Assembly: GCF_036237275.1 (NCBI RefSeq)
Contig: NZ_CP108352.1
Coordinates: forward strand, 6,758,001 to 6,822,000
DNA length: 64,000 bases
Reading direction: 5' to 3'
Origin: Streptomyces sp. NBC_01353
Lineage (GTDB): Bacteria; Actinomycetota; Actinomycetes; Streptomycetales; Streptomycetaceae
The position numbers and the translations under genes were made by a program. Shown in pieces: positions 19,309 to 25,509 of the stretch; the stretch's first letter is position 1, and the number at the start of each line of letters is the position of its first letter. The notes below the pieces were generated by a model that saw only the letters and a program-made list of their open reading frames with translations, was not told the DNA's origin and made no database searches.

Positions 19309-20277
19309 TCACTTCGTCGGCGCCGGGATCTCCGGCGGGGAGATCCGGGACTCGGCGATGGCCGAGTCCGTCAGGCCCCACTTCTTCAGGATCCGGTCGT
19401 ACGTGCCGTCCGCCTTCAGCTTGTTCACCGCCGCCTGGAACGCCGGGGCCAGCGCAGTGCCCTTCTTGAAGGCGAAGCCCACGTCCAGGCGGCGGTACTC
19501 GTTGAGGAACGTCACGTTCTCCTGCTGGGTCACCGCGTACCGCAGGCCGTTGACCGTGCTCATCAGCACATCGCTGCGGCCCTGCTGGAGCGACATCCAC
19601 TGGGCGCCCAGGTCGTTGAAGACCTGTACGTCGTACGGCTTCCTGCCGGCCGCCGCGCAGCGCGGCCGGTTCTTCTCCAGCGTCGCCTCGAACGTCGTAC
19701 CGCCGCCCGTCGCCACGTTCAGACCGCACAGCTGTGTCAGGTCGGTGACCTCCTTCAGCGGGCTGTCCGCGCGCGCCGCGAACCCCTGCCCGTCGTTGAT
19801 GTAGGTCACGAAGTCGATCGTCCTGCGCCGCTCCTCCGTCACCCCGAAGTTCCCCGTGCCGACGTCGTACTTCCCGCTGCCGAGAGCCGGCAGGATCGCC
19901 TCCCAACTCACCACCTCGCGCTTCACCCGGAGCCCGAGCACCTTCGCCACCGCGTCCGTGATGTCGACGTCCCCGCCGACCAGGGTCCTCCCGTCCGGGA
20001 GGTAGGCCGCGCCGGGCAGGGTGCCGGACGCGGAGGCGACGGAGATCGTGCCCCGCTGCCGTACGTCCGCGGGCAGCAGCCTCGCCGCCGCCTCGTCCTT
20101 CGCGATCGTCGAGACCACGTCGGCCGTCGGCACCGCGCCCTTCTTCGCACCCGCCGCACCGGCCGGCGCGGGCAGCGTCGGCGCGGGCGTTCCCGAGCCG
20201 CAGGCCGTGAGGGTGAGCGCGGCCGCGGTGATCAGGGCGAAGGCGACCGTGTGGCGCTGTGTACTGGTGAGGCTCAT
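19309..20277 (-). CDS. Amino-acid ABC transporter substrate-binding lipoprotein (family 3)
   Basis: This encodes 322 residues with a lipobox LTAC (Cys about residue 26). A family 3 solute-binding fold follows: GTISVASASGTLPGAAYLPDG, GGDVDITDAVAKVLGL and YDVGTGNFGVTEERR. Such proteins bind polar amino acids, cystine or similar compounds. Its ATG overlaps the stop of the GNAT gene as ATGA. The matching permease and ATPase are encoded divergently at 21.2-24.6 kb, and a cysteine-ending leader peptide lies upstream, so a sulphur amino acid or other sulphur source is a reasonable guess for the ligand. Confidence 0.92.
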   Translation of the reverse strand: MSLTSTQRHTVAFALITAAALTLTACGSGTPAPTLPAPAGAAGAKKGAVPTADVVSTIAKDEAAARLLPADVRQRGTISVASASGTLPGAAYLPDGRTLVGGDVDITDAVAKVLGLRVKREVVSWEAILPALGSGKYDVGTGNFGVTEERRRTIDFVTYINDGQGFAARADSPLKEVTDLTQLCGLNVATGGGTTFEATLEKNRPRCAAAGRKPYDVQVFNDLGAQWMSLQQGRSDVLMSTVNGLRYAVTQQENVTFLNEYRRLDVGFAFKKGTALAPAFQAAVNKLKADGTYDRILKKWGLTDSAIAESRISPPEIPAPTK

Positions 20278-20771
20278 GGCTTCGGGGTCTCCAGGTGCTT
20301 CTCGAACGGCAGCAGGCCGATCGACTCCGGATCCGCGGACGGATCGAACAGCGGGCGGTAACCGGCCGCCAGATAGAGGCCCTTGGCCTCGGGCTGGCGC
20401 GGGCCGGTGGTGAGGTACACGCGGGAGTAGCCGCGGTCGGCGGCCTCCCGTTCGAGGACGGTCAGAACCCGGCGCGCGAGGCCGCGGCGGCGGTGCGCGG
20501 AGTGCGTCCAGATCCTCTTCAGCTCGACGGTGTGCGGGTTGCGACGGCGGTACGCGCCACCGGCGACGGGCCTGCCGTGCTCCAGGAGCAGCAGGAACGC
20601 GCCCTGCGGAGGGGCGAACTCCTCGGGCGGGTAGCGCCGGAGGTCGGCGTCGGAGCCGTAGCGGGTGAGGTACTCGTGCGCCAGCTCGTCGAGAAGCGGG
20701 CGCGCCAAAGGGTCGTCGACCGTGGTCCGGCGCACGGACAGCGCGGATCCACGGCTGGGCGTGGAGGTCAT
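20274..20771 (-). CDS. GNAT family N-acetyltransferase
   Basis: This encodes 165 residues. The acetyl-CoA-binding motif A is clear: VELKRIWTHSAHRRRGLARRVLTVLE, with RRRGLA at the pyrophosphate loop, followed by YSRVYLTTGPRQPEAKGLYLAAGY. It transfers acetyl groups to an unknown amine. It is the first structural gene after the leader peptide and is translationally coupled to the binding-protein gene by ATGA, so it may modify the imported compound. Confidence 0.9.
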   Translation of the reverse strand: MTSTPSRGSALSVRRTTVDDPLARPLLDELAHEYLTRYGSDADLRRYPPEEFAPPQGAFLLLLEHGRPVAGGAYRRRNPHTVELKRIWTHSAHRRRGLARRVLTVLEREAADRGYSRVYLTTGPRQPEAKGLYLAAGYRPLFDPSADPESIGLLPFEKHLETPKP

Positions 20772-20885
20772 ACGTGTCCCTCAGGAGGAGGACAAGGCAG
20801 GGCGGAGCGAGGGGAGTCGAGCTCGGCTACACAGGTGAAGGCGCCGCGCGGAAGAGTGCGGGCAGGCGATACGCAGGGGGTCGGC

Positions 20886-20957
20886 TCAACAGGAAGAGGA
20901 CCACACGCGACCGAAGTCGATGTGGGAGCGCGTGACCAGCCACTGCTGCGAATGCAT
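20886..20957 (-). CDS. Putative cysteine-responsive leader peptide (23 aa)
   Basis: ATG 20957 to TGA 20886 encodes a peptide whose core, LVTRSHIDFGRV, fits the recurrent actinobacterial leader-peptide pattern L-V-[ST]-R-x-H-[VI]-D-[LF]-G-R. It ends in SSSC immediately before the stop. Peptides of this type precede sulphur-assimilation and sulphur amino acid transport operons, and the terminal Cys is where ribosomes would stall when charged tRNA-Cys is short. A weak -35/-10 pair (TTGACG, 17 bases, TCCACT) would place the transcript start on the ATG itself, giving a leaderless message. It lies 114 bases upstream of the GNAT gene on the same strand. Confidence 0.75.
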   Translation of the reverse strand: MHSQQWLVTRSHIDFGRVWSSSC

Positions 20958-21028
20958 GGCCCAAGTGGAACAGGTATCCGATTGCCCGTCAACCACGATG
21001 AGACGTACGGCTCATCCTTCGGACAGCC

Positions 21029-21059
21029 TTGACAAGGCGGCGCTCTGCCGCCGTAGCCT
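21029..21059 (+). promoter_or_regulatory. Promoter of the permease operon
   Basis: TTGACA (21029-21034) and TAGCCT (21054-21059) are separated by 19 bases and match the vegetative -35 and the Streptomyces -10 pattern TAGNNT. The spacer contains an inverted repeat GGCGG/CCGCC. The predicted transcript start is about 93 bases before the permease ATG. Confidence 0.6.
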
Positions 21060-21158
21060 CAAGGGGCGGATCGAGCTGAGGGGCTCGGATCCGTGCTCGC
21101 CGCGCGTGAAGGCGCACACCCGTGTTCGATCCGTCTCTGGAATCCACGGAGCCTTCGC

Positions 21159-22004
21159 ATGTCCGCGACCCTCACCAAGACCCCCTCCGCGGCCCCGCCG
21201 GCCGCCCCCCTCCGCATCGTCCCCGCCCGCCGCACCGGCCAATGGGCCGCGGCCGCCGTCGTTCTGGCGCTGCTCGCGCTCGGAATCGTCTCGGTCGTCC
21301 GCAACAGAGCCTTCCAGTGGGACGTCGTCGGCGACTACTTCACCTCGACCGCCGTCCTGCGCGGACTGGGCCTCACCCTCTGGCTGACCGCCCTCGTCAT
21401 GGTCCTCGGCTTCACCCTCGGCACCCTGCTCGCCGTCTTCAGACTCTCCGCCAACCCCGTGCTCCGCGCGGTCAGTTGGGGCTACATCTGGTTCTTCCGC
21501 TCCACGCCGATCCTGGTCCAGCTGCTCTTCTGGTTCAACATCGGGGCGCTCTACCCGACCATCCTCGGCGTCGACACGGTCAACCTCCTCGACCCCGTCG
21601 CGGTCGCCATCATCGGACTGACCCTGCACGAGGCCGCGTACGCCGCCGAGGTGGTGCGCGGCGGCATCCTGTCCGTCGACCGCGGCCAGATCGAGGCCGC
21701 CCAGTCCCTCGGCCTCGGGCGGTGGCGCCGGCTCACCCGGATCGTGCTCCCGCAGGCCATGCGCTCGATCGTCCCGCCCGCAGGGAACATGCTGATCGGC
21801 ACGCTCAAGGGCACCTCCATCGTCTCCGTCATCGCCGTCCAGGACCTGCTCTACTCCGTGCAGCTCGTCTACCACCGCACCTACCAGGTCGTGCCGCTCC
21901 TCCTGGTCGCCACGATCTGGTACGTCCTCGTCACCTCGGTCCTCGGCGTCGGACAGCACTACGTCGAGCGGTACTACGCCCGCGGCACGGCCGGTGCACG
22001 ATGA
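21159..22004 (+). CDS. Amino-acid ABC transporter permease (HisM/GlnP type)
   Basis: This encodes 281 residues with about five membrane helices. The His/Glu/Gln/Arg/opine permease signature is present (GLGLTLWLTALVMVLGF near residue 68) and the coupling EAA loop reads EAAQSLGLGRWRRLTRIVLPQA. It forms the channel of the importer with the ATPase at 23875 and the lipoprotein at 19309. ATG 21159 places the first helix at residues 28-46. It overlaps the FAD/NAD(P) gene by ATGA. Confidence 0.93.
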   Translation: MSATLTKTPSAAPPAAPLRIVPARRTGQWAAAAVVLALLALGIVSVVRNRAFQWDVVGDYFTSTAVLRGLGLTLWLTALVMVLGFTLGTLLAVFRLSANPVLRAVSWGYIWFFRSTPILVQLLFWFNIGALYPTILGVDTVNLLDPVAVAIIGLTLHEAAYAAEVVRGGILSVDRGQIEAAQSLGLGRWRRLTRIVLPQAMRSIVPPAGNMLIGTLKGTSIVSVIAVQDLLYSVQLVYHRTYQVVPLLLVATIWYVLVTSVLGVGQHYVERYYARGTAGAR

Positions 22005-23800
22005 CGCGGAACCCGTCCGTCGTGATCGTGGGCGCCGGGCCGAGAGGAACCGGCCTCCTGGAACGGCTCGCCGCCAACCTGCCGGAGCTGTACGGGGACC
22101 GGCCCCTGGACGTCCATCTCGTCGACCCGCACCCGGCCGGCGGCGGACGCATCTGGCGCACCGAGCAGTCACCGCTGCTCTGGATGAACTCGCAGGCCGA
22201 GGACGTCACCATGTTCACCGACGAGACGGTGGACATCGACGGCCCGGTGCGGCCGGGACCCACCCTCGCCGAGTGGGCCGGACTCGACGGCCGCACCTTC
22301 CCCAGCCGCCCCCAGCAGGGCGCCTACCTGCGCTGGGTGTACGAGCGGACCCGCGCCGCGCTGCCCGCCTCGGTCACCGTCCATGAGCACCGCACCCACG
22401 CGGTCCGGGTCGGCGGCCCGCGCGAAGGGCGCCAGCGGGTCTGGCTGGAGGACCGCTCCGTGCCGCTCGTCGCCGACCTTGTCGTGCTCACCCTCGGCCA
22501 TCTCGACGCCGAACCCGACGACGAACAGCGCCGGTCGGCCGACTTCGCCAAGCGCCACGGGCTGCTCCACCTCCCGCCCGACTTCACCGCCGACACCGAC
22601 CTGTCCGCGCTGCCCGCCGGTGAACCGGTGCTCGTACGCGGCTTCGGTCTCGCCTTCGTCGACCTGATGGTGCTGCTCACCGAGGGCCGCGGCGGGCGCT
22701 ACGAGGAGCGGGGCGAGCGGCTGGAGTACGTACCGTCCGGGCGTGAGCCGGTCCTGTACGTCGGATCCCGGCGCGGGTTGCCGTACCACTCCAAGATCGG
22801 GTACACGCTGGAGGGCGAACGGCCTCCGCTGCCCCGGTTCTTCGGCCCCGCCCAGGTCGACGAGCTGCTGAGGCGGCCCGGGCGGCTCGACTTCCGCCGC
22901 GACATCTGGCCCCTCGTCGACAAGGAGCTCGGCTGGGCCCACTACCACCGGCTCTTCGCAGCCCACCCCGAGCGGACCACCGCCGCGTGGACCGACTTCG
23001 AGGAGAAGTACGCGGCCGCGGCTCCCGGCGGGGCCGAGCTGGACGCCCTCGTCGCCGCCGCCGTCCCCGACCCCGCCGACCGGCTCGACCTGGACGCCCT
23101 CGACCACCCCCTGGACGGGGTGCGCTTCGCCTCGCCCGAGGCCCTCCAGGACGGGCTACGCCGCCACATCGCCGACGACCTGGCCCGGCGCCACGACCCC
23201 GAACACAGCCCGGACCTGGCGGTCTTCACCGCGCTGCTCTCGGTCTACGGGCAGCTCGTCCGGCTCGGCGACACCGGCGACCCGCGCGACTGGTGGCACG
23301 GCTTCTTCAGCTTCCTCGCCTCCGGACCGCCCGGCCCCCGGCTCCACCAGCTGCTCGCGCTCTCCCGTGCCGGGATCGTCCGCTTCCTCGGCGCCGGGAC
23401 GACCGTGGTGGCCGACGAGGAACGCGGGGTCTTCCGGGCCCACTCCATGAGCGTGCCGGGGGAGTGGACCGACGCCCGCGCCCTGGTCGAGGCCCGGCTC
23501 CCCGACCCGACCCTGGAACGCACCGGCAGCCCCCTGCTCCGCGCCCTCCACGAGGACGGCGCCCGGGCCACCGCGGCCGGACTGCTCGCCGTCGACCCCG
23601 CCGACGGGCGGATCCTGGAGCGCGGTGGGCGCCCGCACCCGCGCCGTTTCGCGCTCGGCCCGCACACCACCTCCCGGGCCGGTGGCGCCTTCACCCGTCC
23701 GCGCACCGGCGGTGCCGCCTTCCGCCAGAACGACGCGACCGCACGGACCGCGCTGGCCTTCCTGCACGACCTGTCCTGCCGTGCCCAGCTCAGCGCCTGA
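22001..23800 (+). CDS. FAD/NAD(P)-binding protein, NAD_binding_9 type
   Basis: This encodes 599 residues. The N-terminal Rossmann motif is VVIVGAGPRGTGLLERLAA (GxGxxG form), with an aromatic/acidic stretch LLWMNSQAEDVTMFTD, and a second nucleotide-binding region near EPVLVRGFGLAFVDLMVLL. The family is annotated as a flavin- or NAD(P)-binding oxidoreductase; its reaction is not known to me. Its position between permease and ATPase genes, with ATGA overlap to the former, suggests that it processes the imported compound, perhaps by oxidation or N-hydroxylation. No membrane segment or signal peptide is seen. Confidence 0.88.
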   Translation: MTRNPSVVIVGAGPRGTGLLERLAANLPELYGDRPLDVHLVDPHPAGGGRIWRTEQSPLLWMNSQAEDVTMFTDETVDIDGPVRPGPTLAEWAGLDGRTFPSRPQQGAYLRWVYERTRAALPASVTVHEHRTHAVRVGGPREGRQRVWLEDRSVPLVADLVVLTLGHLDAEPDDEQRRSADFAKRHGLLHLPPDFTADTDLSALPAGEPVLVRGFGLAFVDLMVLLTEGRGGRYEERGERLEYVPSGREPVLYVGSRRGLPYHSKIGYTLEGERPPLPRFFGPAQVDELLRRPGRLDFRRDIWPLVDKELGWAHYHRLFAAHPERTTAAWTDFEEKYAAAAPGGAELDALVAAAVPDPADRLDLDALDHPLDGVRFASPEALQDGLRRHIADDLARRHDPEHSPDLAVFTALLSVYGQLVRLGDTGDPRDWWHGFFSFLASGPPGPRLHQLLALSRAGIVRFLGAGTTVVADEERGVFRAHSMSVPGEWTDARALVEARLPDPTLERTGSPLLRALHEDGARATAAGLLAVDPADGRILERGGRPHPRRFALGPHTTSRAGGAFTRPRTGGAAFRQNDATARTALAFLHDLSCRAQLSA

Positions 23801-23874: not shown

Positions 23875-24636
23875 ATGAGCTCCATGGTCGAAGTCCGGTC
23901 CGTCCACAAGTCCTTCGGCGCGCTCGACGTGCTCCGGGGCGTCGACCTCGACGTCCGGGCCGGGGAGGTCGCCGTCGTCCTCGGCCCGTCCGGCTCCGGC
24001 AAGTCCACCCTGCTGCGGACCATCAACCACCTGGAGAAGGTCGACAGCGGCCGGATCAGCGTCGACGGCACCCTCGTCGGCTACCGCCGCTCCGGGAACA
24101 AGCTCCACGAACTGCGTGAACGCGAGATCCTCAAACAGCGCACCAGGATCGGCTTCGTCTTCCAGAACTTCCATCTCTTCCCGCACCTCACGGTGGTCGA
24201 GAACATCGTCGAGGCACCCGTCTGGGCCCTGAAGCGCCCACGCAAGGACGCCGTCGCCGCCGCCGAGAAGCTCCTCGACCGGGTCGGGCTCGCCGACAAG
24301 GCGGAGGCGTACCCCGGGCAGCTCTCCGGAGGCCAGCAGCAACGGGTCGCGATCGCCCGTGCGCTCGCCCTCGAACCGACGCTGCTGCTCTTCGACGAGC
24401 CGACCTCCGCACTCGACCCCGAGCTGGTCGGCGAGGTCCTCGACGTCATCAAGGACCTCGCCGCCTCCGGCACCACGATGATCGTCGTCACGCACGAGAT
24501 CGGCTTCGCACGCGAGGTCGCGGACACCGTCGTCTTCATGGACGAGGGCCGGATCGTCGAGCAGGGCCCACCCGCAGAGGTGCTCGACAGCCCCCGCCAC
24601 GAGCGCACCCGCGCCTTCCTCTCCAAGGTCCTCTGA
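23875..24636 (+). CDS. Amino-acid ABC transporter ATP-binding protein
   Basis: This encodes 253 residues with Walker A GPSGSGKST, Q-loop region GFVFQNFHLFPHLTV, signature LSGGQQQRVAIARAL, Walker B LLLFDEPTSALDPE and the switch His in VVTHEIGFA. It closely matches the GlnQ/HisP group. AAGGGGAG lies six bases upstream of ATG 23875. It completes the permease operon. Confidence 0.95.
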   Translation: MSSMVEVRSVHKSFGALDVLRGVDLDVRAGEVAVVLGPSGSGKSTLLRTINHLEKVDSGRISVDGTLVGYRRSGNKLHELREREILKQRTRIGFVFQNFHLFPHLTVVENIVEAPVWALKRPRKDAVAAAEKLLDRVGLADKAEAYPGQLSGGQQQRVAIARALALEPTLLLFDEPTSALDPELVGEVLDVIKDLAASGTTMIVVTHEIGFAREVADTVVFMDEGRIVEQGPPAEVLDSPRHERTRAFLSKVL

Positions 24637-24708
24637 CCAGCCGTACCCGACGACCCGCACGGCCAGCCACGTACCAGGAGCTGACGCCCTGTGGAAAGGT
24701 TGAACACC

Positions 24709-25509
24709 ATGAGCACGGATCCCCGACAGGGCGCACAGCAGGACTGGCAGCACTGGCACGAACAGCGCACGGCGGCGGTCGCCTCGTCGTACGGCCCGCT
24801 CTCCCTCACCGGTACGTACTGGCTCTCCGACTACCCGGAGGGGCGAATTCCGGCCGTTCCCGGACGGTGGCACGACGGCGGGGACGAGGTGGTCCTGACG
24901 GGGGACGCCGAGGACGCGATCACCGTCGACGGCAAGCCCCTGATCGGCAGTGTCCGGCTCACCGCGGACCACGCCCCGATCCACGAGTCCCGGGCCGAGT
25001 CCGCCGGCCGGCGTCTTGTCGTGCTGCGCCGCGAAGGTCTTTGGGCCGTACGGGACTTCGACCCCGAGTCGCAGGAGCGCCGCACCTTCCGGGGCATCGA
25101 GGCGACCCCGTACGACGAGCGCTGGGTGGTGCCCGGAACCTTCCGCGCCTACGAGCGGTCCCGCAGCGTCCGGGTGGAGAACGCCGACGGGAAGGAGCGC
25201 GGGCTCGGTCTCGCCGGCGAGCTCTCCTTCGAACTGCACGGCGTCGAGCACACGCTCCAGGTCGCGGTGGAGGACGACGGCACGCTGTGGGCGGTCTTCG
25301 CTGACCTCACCAGCGGCCGGGACAGCTACCGGTTCCGCTTTCTGCGTCCCCCCGCGCCGACGGCGGACGGCACGGTCACGGTCGACTTCAACCGCGCTCT
25401 GCTGCCGCCGTGCGCCTTCGCGGACCACTTCATCTGCCCCTTCCCGCCACCGGGGAACACCCTGGACACCGCGGTGCCGGCCGGGGAGCGACGGCTGGTC
25501 GAGGGCTGA
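24709..25509 (+). CDS. DUF1684 family protein
   Basis: This encodes 266 residues with no signal peptide. Family features are WQHWHEQRTAAVASSYGPLSL near the N terminus, a beta-rich middle, and the C-terminal CAFADHFICPFPPPGN, which has conserved Cys, Asp and His. The function of DUF1684 is unknown. ATG 24709 has AAAGG nine bases upstream and is chosen over GTG 24691. It starts 72 bases after the ATPase gene and could be a last gene of that operon. Confidence 0.88.
   Translation: MSTDPRQGAQQDWQHWHEQRTAAVASSYGPLSLTGTYWLSDYPEGRIPAVPGRWHDGGDEVVLTGDAEDAITVDGKPLIGSVRLTADHAPIHESRAESAGRRLVVLRREGLWAVRDFDPESQERRTFRGIEATPYDERWVVPGTFRAYERSRSVRVENADGKERGLGLAGELSFELHGVEHTLQVAVEDDGTLWAVFADLTSGRDSYRFRFLRPPAPTADGTVTVDFNRALLPPCAFADHFICPFPPPGNTLDTAVPAGERRLVEG

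Follow-up and report, generated by a model that had tools for sequence, protein, structure and literature searches.

A putative cysteine-responsive leader peptide preceding an acetyltransferase and binding-protein operon of Streptomyces sp. NBC_01353

Introduction

Cysteine leaders have been described in mycobacteria, for which Seliverstov 2005, in the part of that work available, found no conserved terminator hairpins and suggested the involvement of Rho, calling the prediction weak. Mycobacterial cysteine leaders are named cysteine-responsive attenuators in the title of another study, and leaderless sORFs encoding polycysteine peptides (Canestrari 2020) are grouped here with the type of leader modelled in NCBIfam as NF042936 (leader_Ms4527A, 'Cys-rich leader peptide'). 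A second NCBIfam model, NF042934 (cis_reg_atten), is annotated as 'putative leader peptide'. The available part of the reannotation of S. lividans gives eight leaders, including metL, which has Cys codons and precedes a methionine importer, and places none of them before cysteine genes. With regard to gene content, the accessible portions of two papers describe the Bacillus yxe operon (S-succinocysteine), composed of genes for a GNAT acetyltransferase, an ABC importer and a monooxygenase (PMC9706529), and S-alkylcysteine salvage, which also uses acetylation and flavoenzymes (PMC10863075).

The present work concerns a 64,000-nucleotide stretch of Streptomyces sp. NBC_01353 (contig NZ_CP108352.1, positions 6,758,001 to 6,822,000), hereafter the window, where a short ORF precedes the genes for a GNAT acetyltransferase and a solute-binding protein. 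The promoter spacing before the window leader may point to a leaderless start, as would be expected of a cysteine-responsive leaderless attenuator of the mycobacterial type. The TnaC leader peptide of E. coli provides another comparison; it responds to tryptophan excess and differs in sequence from the window leader, but the two would be alike in a stall beside the stop codon, in a Rho-type terminator region and, if the Cys is the residue awaited in the window leader, in an Asp located about eight residues from the P-site residue.

Results

Leader ORF and its conservation

The first-pass annotation had reported a 23-codon ORF on the minus strand, ending in SSSC just before the stop, upstream of the GNAT and binding-protein genes. 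Translation of minus-strand positions 20957–20886 agrees, yielding a peptide of 23 aa with SSSC at its C-terminus; the leader stop lies 114 nt before the GNAT ATG, and the binding-protein gene is next (Table 1).

Table 1. Features of the leader locus and of the divergent genes (window coordinates)
Feature	Position	Strand	Evidence or remark
Solute-binding protein family 3, start overlapping GNAT end	19309..20277	minus	PF00497, E 5.1e-26; lipobox by eye
GNAT N-acetyltransferase, first gene behind leader	20274..20771	minus	PF00583, E 6.4e-16
C-rich untranslated gap, leader stop to GNAT; 53 C, 27 G of 114	20772..20885	minus	without terminator-like site
Leader peptide ORF, MHSQQWLVTRSHIDFGRVWSSSC and stop	20886..20957	minus	translation and conservation, 64/67 GNAT loci
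TGT codon of the key Cys (His+11), directly followed by the TGA stop	20889..20891	minus	UGU fixation in relatives
Promoter-like TTGACG-17 nt-TCCACT, 6 nt before ATG	20964..20992	minus	probable leaderless transcript
Conserved 5' element of divergent permease, separate from leader	21058..21161	plus	alignment of loci
Amino-acid-type ABC permease	21159..22004	plus	PF00528; best NCBIfam model cystine permease, under cut-off
FAD-NAD(P)-binding protein	22001..23800	plus	PF13454, E 1.3e-37
ABC ATPase	23875..24636	plus	best NCBIfam model L-cystine TcyN, under cut-off
DUF1684 protein	24691..25509	plus	PF07920

The pattern was also found upstream of orthologues. The GNAT was searched for in 295 genomes of the same genus and matched at E<=1e-25 in 70 of them; 67 of the 73 match rows were fetched, omitting a second copy in genome G271 and five matches at 42–50% identity. 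A leader core, sought upstream of the GNAT with the pattern [LIVM][VLIT]xRx[HY]ID[FL]xRVxSxxC, was present in 60 of the 67 loci at first pass, and extra upstream DNA for six of the seven misses revealed it in four more, giving 64 of 67; it is absent in two loci, and one begins at a contig start and is not judgeable. Most orthologues carry the window-type subfamily LVTR[SD]HIDFGRVWS[SA][SA]C. Across the 39 distinct DNA sequences of the core, entropy averages 0.33, 0.09 and 0.56 at the first, second and third codon position, respectively; synonymous sites are thus the most variable, which fits a translated peptide. Another genome's GNAT locus (L214, about position 2324, minus strand count) contains a second, divergent family leader, LVRRRHVDFGHVVSAACCRV.

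Relation to the modelled leader families

By its sequence, the window leader belongs to a family that NCBI already models (NF042934, NF042936), though it lies below both cut-offs. It shares with NF042934 the core L-[VT]-x-R-x-H-[VI]-D-[LF]-x-R-...-C and the arrangement of a short ORF before sulphur genes, but the peptide is not among the listed matches of this model (curated cut-off 27 bits) even at E<=10; NF042936 has the same core and a UGU Cys codon at His+11, but the window peptide scores 21.7 bits against a curated cut-off of 45 and contains a single Cys, where that family has at least three. The grouping of both models, namely R-x-H-x-D leaders with Cys at His+11, is matched in the core motif and in the Cys near the stop, and the location before sulphur-related genes is seen in the orthologous operons and appears probable, by extension, for the window genes themselves. 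In nine of the ten loci above the NF042936 cut-off, a sulfite-reductase-like N-terminus was recognised by eye after the leader.

Scoring with NF042934 and NF042936 covered 150 of 215 and 150 of 287 first-look candidates, respectively. NF042934 matched in all 150 family genomes, belonging to 17 genera, with 3 to 14 matches each, and in none of 14 controls (E<=0.001); at E<=10 the two models also match in 9 and 10 of the 14 control genomes, so weak matches mean little.

From the NF042934 and NF042936 matches in the genome of strain NBC_01353, 17 leaders were picked by motif and position; eight NF042934 matches are above the cut-off, and the weak picks among the 17 are uncertain, above all L017 (E 0.5 and 1.05 in the two models). 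The description of the leader as a recurrent pattern applies genome-wide, but not within the window, where, among the candidates scored, it is the sole listed match of either model. Twelve of the 17, the window leader included, precede genes that we take, partly from general knowledge, to be sulphur-linked, among them those for sulfite reductase, sulfonate-type binding proteins and permease, two sulfatases, rhodanese, flavin reductase, a luciferase-type monooxygenase, a ThiS protein with a PLP enzyme of the cysteine-synthase kind, and a ROK gene followed by a binding protein. The other five, without a clear sulphur link, precede a 2OG-Fe oxygenase, a DUF1684 protein, a GST-like protein, a dicarboxylate symporter and, in one case, no gene that was found. 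The two operon monooxygenases also have relatives elsewhere in this genome: the five strong ones (E<=7.5e-28) all lie 247–5359 nt downstream of a same-strand leader, and two weak ones (E ~5e-12) are 24 kb and 1.7 Mb from a leader.

The DUF1684 protein among these genes (L113:3201-4085) is encoded directly behind its leader, and another DUF1684 protein belongs to the window locus, hinting at a sulphur role for the domain.

Codon usage and conserved residues

UGU occupies the position eleven residues past the conserved His (His+11) in 107 of the 109 unique leaders, and the other two, both from strain NBC_01353, encode no Cys there (AGU for Ser and UGA), so that 2 of its 17 leaders are without Cys at His+11. 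The 109 are the distinct leader DNAs from the 17 leaders of this genome, 60 loci of GNAT orthologues and 50 parsed of 60 other family loci; the last were the top-ranked among the matches listed and so lean towards the model consensus, and many of them precede the same cysteine-synthase-like gene. Among the ten unparsed loci, outside the 109, eight have UGU at His+11 and two have Ala for His, with the codon unread. A class-wide set, 29 loci read out of 40 match rows, contains UGU in 27, UGC in one and no Cys in one. The other Cys codons of the same 109 leaders are mostly UGC (79, with 14 UGU, of 93; Fisher p 1.4e-41, not to be taken literally because the leaders share descent), but in these lineages Cys codons at other positions have changed to UGC. 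UGU is a disfavoured codon: the window genes contain 194 Cys codons, of which 34 are UGU. A simple custom ORF caller supplied both the gene calls and the codon backgrounds.

A fixed sequence context as the cause of UGU was considered and rejected: the flanks vary, and across 109 contexts, themselves chosen for TGT, nothing but TGT is constant. Within the GNAT orthologues some further codons, such as ATC and GAC, are uniform too, and GGT encodes each of the 36 Gly; the nucleotide-level constraint there is consequently not confined to Cys.

At the amino-acid level, Arg(-2) is found in all 17 leaders of this genome with five codons, Arg(+5) in 16 with three, His in 16 with two and Asp(+2) in all 17, with GAC in 16. 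Since these residues are kept across 17 leaders of different genes, the peptide is conserved and not only the codon; such a pattern would fit a peptide read in the exit tunnel together with one codon read at the decoding centre. The leader located before the ThiS and PLP-enzyme genes (L016/L116) has UGA at the site of the relatives' UGU Cys codon (LLVARLHVDLCRLASAM followed by the stop).

No publication on Streptomyces members of the family or on the UGU rule was found in the literature searched, which is a weak negative, as subscription papers were mostly outside the search; the codon rule appears to be new here, and the leader family itself was already known.

Promoter and the gap after the leader stop

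TTGAC is located 33–39 nt before an in-frame ATG or GTG in 71 of 122 unique family members, compared with 0 of 99 control positions. Its distribution is uneven: the spacing occurs in 56/56 GNAT orthologues, 9/50 other family loci and 6/16 other leaders of this genome, i.e., in only 15 of 66 leaders outside the GNAT orthologues. On the basis of this spacing a leaderless start is probable for the window leader and, beyond it, for only part of the wider family; a generic sigma-70 scan called no site at the window leader.

Over the first 100 nt past the leader stop, C is more frequent than G in all 60 loci; a few of these have short gaps, so that the count reaches into the gene. The mean C minus G difference in these loci is 0.202 (rounded 0.20), against 0.27 in the window and 0.057 in 46 control regions, about 4% of which reach the window value; the RNA after the leader stop is thus C-rich and G-poor, as in a tna-like Rho-dependent arrangement. 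The terminator hairpin and U-tract of a classical trp-type attenuator were not found at the window leader: no terminator-like site was detected in window positions 20700–21250, and the predicted folding of the window RNA does not surpass that of shuffled sequences (z 0.0 and 0.32). In Rfam searches the window had no match that reached a gathering score, and seven loci and the permease leader had weak matches only, to one microRNA and one lncRNA family, far under the gathering scores. A CGCCTTCAC stretch recurs in the gap of window-type loci and could pair with GA[AG]GG sequences.

In loci of the L051–L089 type, with monooxygenase-type operons, the first ~60 nt past the leader stop contain a strongly conserved RNA, CTCGGCAGCGGGCC..GGCCC-TTCCCTCCCTCGGTGACCCCGTCGCGGGCCGAG, for which mutually exclusive helices are possible. 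A consensus fold of 25 of the 29 monooxygenase-type loci has changes on both sides in only 2 of 19 pairs. RNA alignment A3 was made without four loci with insertions, and RNA alignment A4 without L032.

Operon genes and likely substrate

In 20 of the 67 GNAT loci the permease is divergent, as in the window, and in at least one more (G294) it lies just past the first stretch. In 29 loci a protein starting with MPVEFLGIAAT is encoded between the leader and the GNAT; the single one tested of these 29 (L093) is of the Bac_luciferase type and resembles alkanesulfonate and dimethylsulfone monooxygenases, under the cut-offs of those models. Another luciferase-type enzyme occupies this place in G294, and in L102 a second monooxygenase is encoded behind the importer genes, with its best match (E 7.5e-52) to B. 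subtilis YtnJ, which we take to be CmoJ. The orthologous loci thereby resemble the yxe and ytm/Cmo operons of Bacillus subtilis in combining a GNAT, an ABC importer and an FMN monooxygenase; unlike these, the window locus has no adjacent monooxygenase or deacetylase that could be seen.

In loci L046–L049, the N-terminal residues of an SsuD-like monooxygenase (MSVEFLGTAATDDG...) persist between the leader and the GNAT, apparently in frame with the latter in three of the four, an arrangement displayed as a single ORF in L096; the remnant looks as if it were a relic of the loss of the monooxygenase gene.

Since the orthologous operons are like the Bacillus salvage operons, an organosulphur compound, perhaps an S-substituted cysteine, is proposed as the substrate, and the operon may serve uptake and N-acetylation of such a compound as a sulphur source. 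The window GNAT matched no characterised cysteine acetyltransferase (its best solved match, YsnE, is weak) and the binding protein matched general amino-acid binders only, so the substrate stays a matter of inference. The sulphur-related substrate of the first-pass annotation is nevertheless likely, given the sulphur genes of the family in this genome and the orthologous operons with SsuD-like and YtnJ-like enzymes; the ligand, which it had left otherwise unknown, can tentatively be narrowed as above.

The divergent permease arm

The permease arm has its own promoter-like sequence TTGACA...TAGCCT and a 5' element kept in all 20 loci compared (L026–L039, L042–L044, L090–L092). The element comprises a hairpin with a TGAGG loop, followed by GTGTGAAGGC, which is able to pair with GCCTTCGC-ATG; in 19 aligned sequences the predicted helix covers the start codon, and for 4 of the 21 pairs predicted a sequence with changes on both sides exists. 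It has one strong match in this genome (the next is at 26 bits, E 0.24) and corresponds to no Rfam family, being a candidate for an unnamed regulatory RNA, which could also be a DNA site. No second family leader was seen by eye on the permease strand of the alignment. As this arm lies on the other strand with a separate promoter-like site and 5' element, the leader would directly govern only the GNAT and binding-protein genes; the earlier proposal that it controls a divergent transporter locus may thus hold for those two genes, but is not supported for the permease, the FAD protein and the ATPase.

Discussion

The locus is best explained as a cysteine-responsive leader-peptide attenuator of the transcript for the GNAT and the binding protein, which we consider likely; as judged from sequence, comparison with related loci gives good support to the view that a sulphur locus is here under the control of cysteine. 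Transcription would probably start at or beside the leader ATG, as the promoter spacing suggests, and ribosomes would translate the 23-codon leader. With scarce Cys-tRNA, the ribosome would stall at the single UGU Cys codon beside the stop, and the core R-x-H-I-D-..-R, then in the exit tunnel, would probably reinforce the stall, which would permit expression of the GNAT and the binding protein. With ample cysteine, the ribosome would finish the leader and leave the C-rich gap open to repression, for which Rho-dependent termination is the likeliest mechanism and a loss of GNAT translation the alternative. Rho-dependent control is the first choice because the gap is C-rich, no terminator-like site is present and the fold is no better than that of shuffles.

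The competing explanations differ in how much of this scheme they replace. G+C-rich DNA often has short ORFs, but a chance ORF without function is contradicted by the cross-species conservation, the promoter spacing and the UGU fixation, and its probability is negligible. A classical attenuator, in which hairpins compete and transcription ends at an intrinsic terminator, could draw on the conserved post-leader RNA with its possible alternative helices in the 25 of 29 monooxygenase-type loci folded; the lack of a terminator-like site in the region searched and the scarcity of two-sided changes among the consensus pairs of these loci make it improbable. Attenuation at the level of translation is a close rival of Rho-dependent control, because a 2026 paper, in the part available, cites the cysteine genes of M. 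smegmatis as so regulated; here, leader RNA would pair with the GNAT ribosome-binding region and the stall would free the GNAT start, with no early termination. The recurring CGCCTTCAC stretch, with its potential partners, suits such pairing, but shuffled sequences fold as well as the window RNA does, and we lean against this alternative while regarding it as a serious one.

The role of the nascent chain can be read differently as well. The core might be a true arrest peptide, the nascent chain being essential and the effector being cysteine or another sulphur metabolite, not only a shortage of Cys-tRNA. The retention of Arg(-2), His and Arg(+5) with varying codons, and of Asp(+2), across leaders of different genes speaks for this, but the fixation of UGU at the Cys points towards decoding, and the relatives above the NF042936 cut-off carry several Cys codons, which codon counting would predict; we regard a true arrest peptide as possible, with the balance somewhat against it. 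Perhaps both properties are combined and read separately: an actinobacteria-wide hybrid of an arrest core (R-x-H-[VI]-D-..-R) lodged in the exit tunnel and an almost invariant UGU at His+11 gauging Cys-tRNA by slow wobble decoding is a tentative proposal, to which we give a little less than an even chance.

If the hybrid proposal is true, each genome would reuse the same module before several to more than 12 operons, many of which concern sulphur, the window locus among them. In either reading, the leader would tie an unassigned importer and acetyltransferase to cysteine supply, and the sulphur operons of these bacteria could be listed from sequence by means of it. The UGU rule and the conservation of the core at the amino-acid level frame the question of whether the ribosome counts Cys-tRNA, reads the nascent chain, or both.
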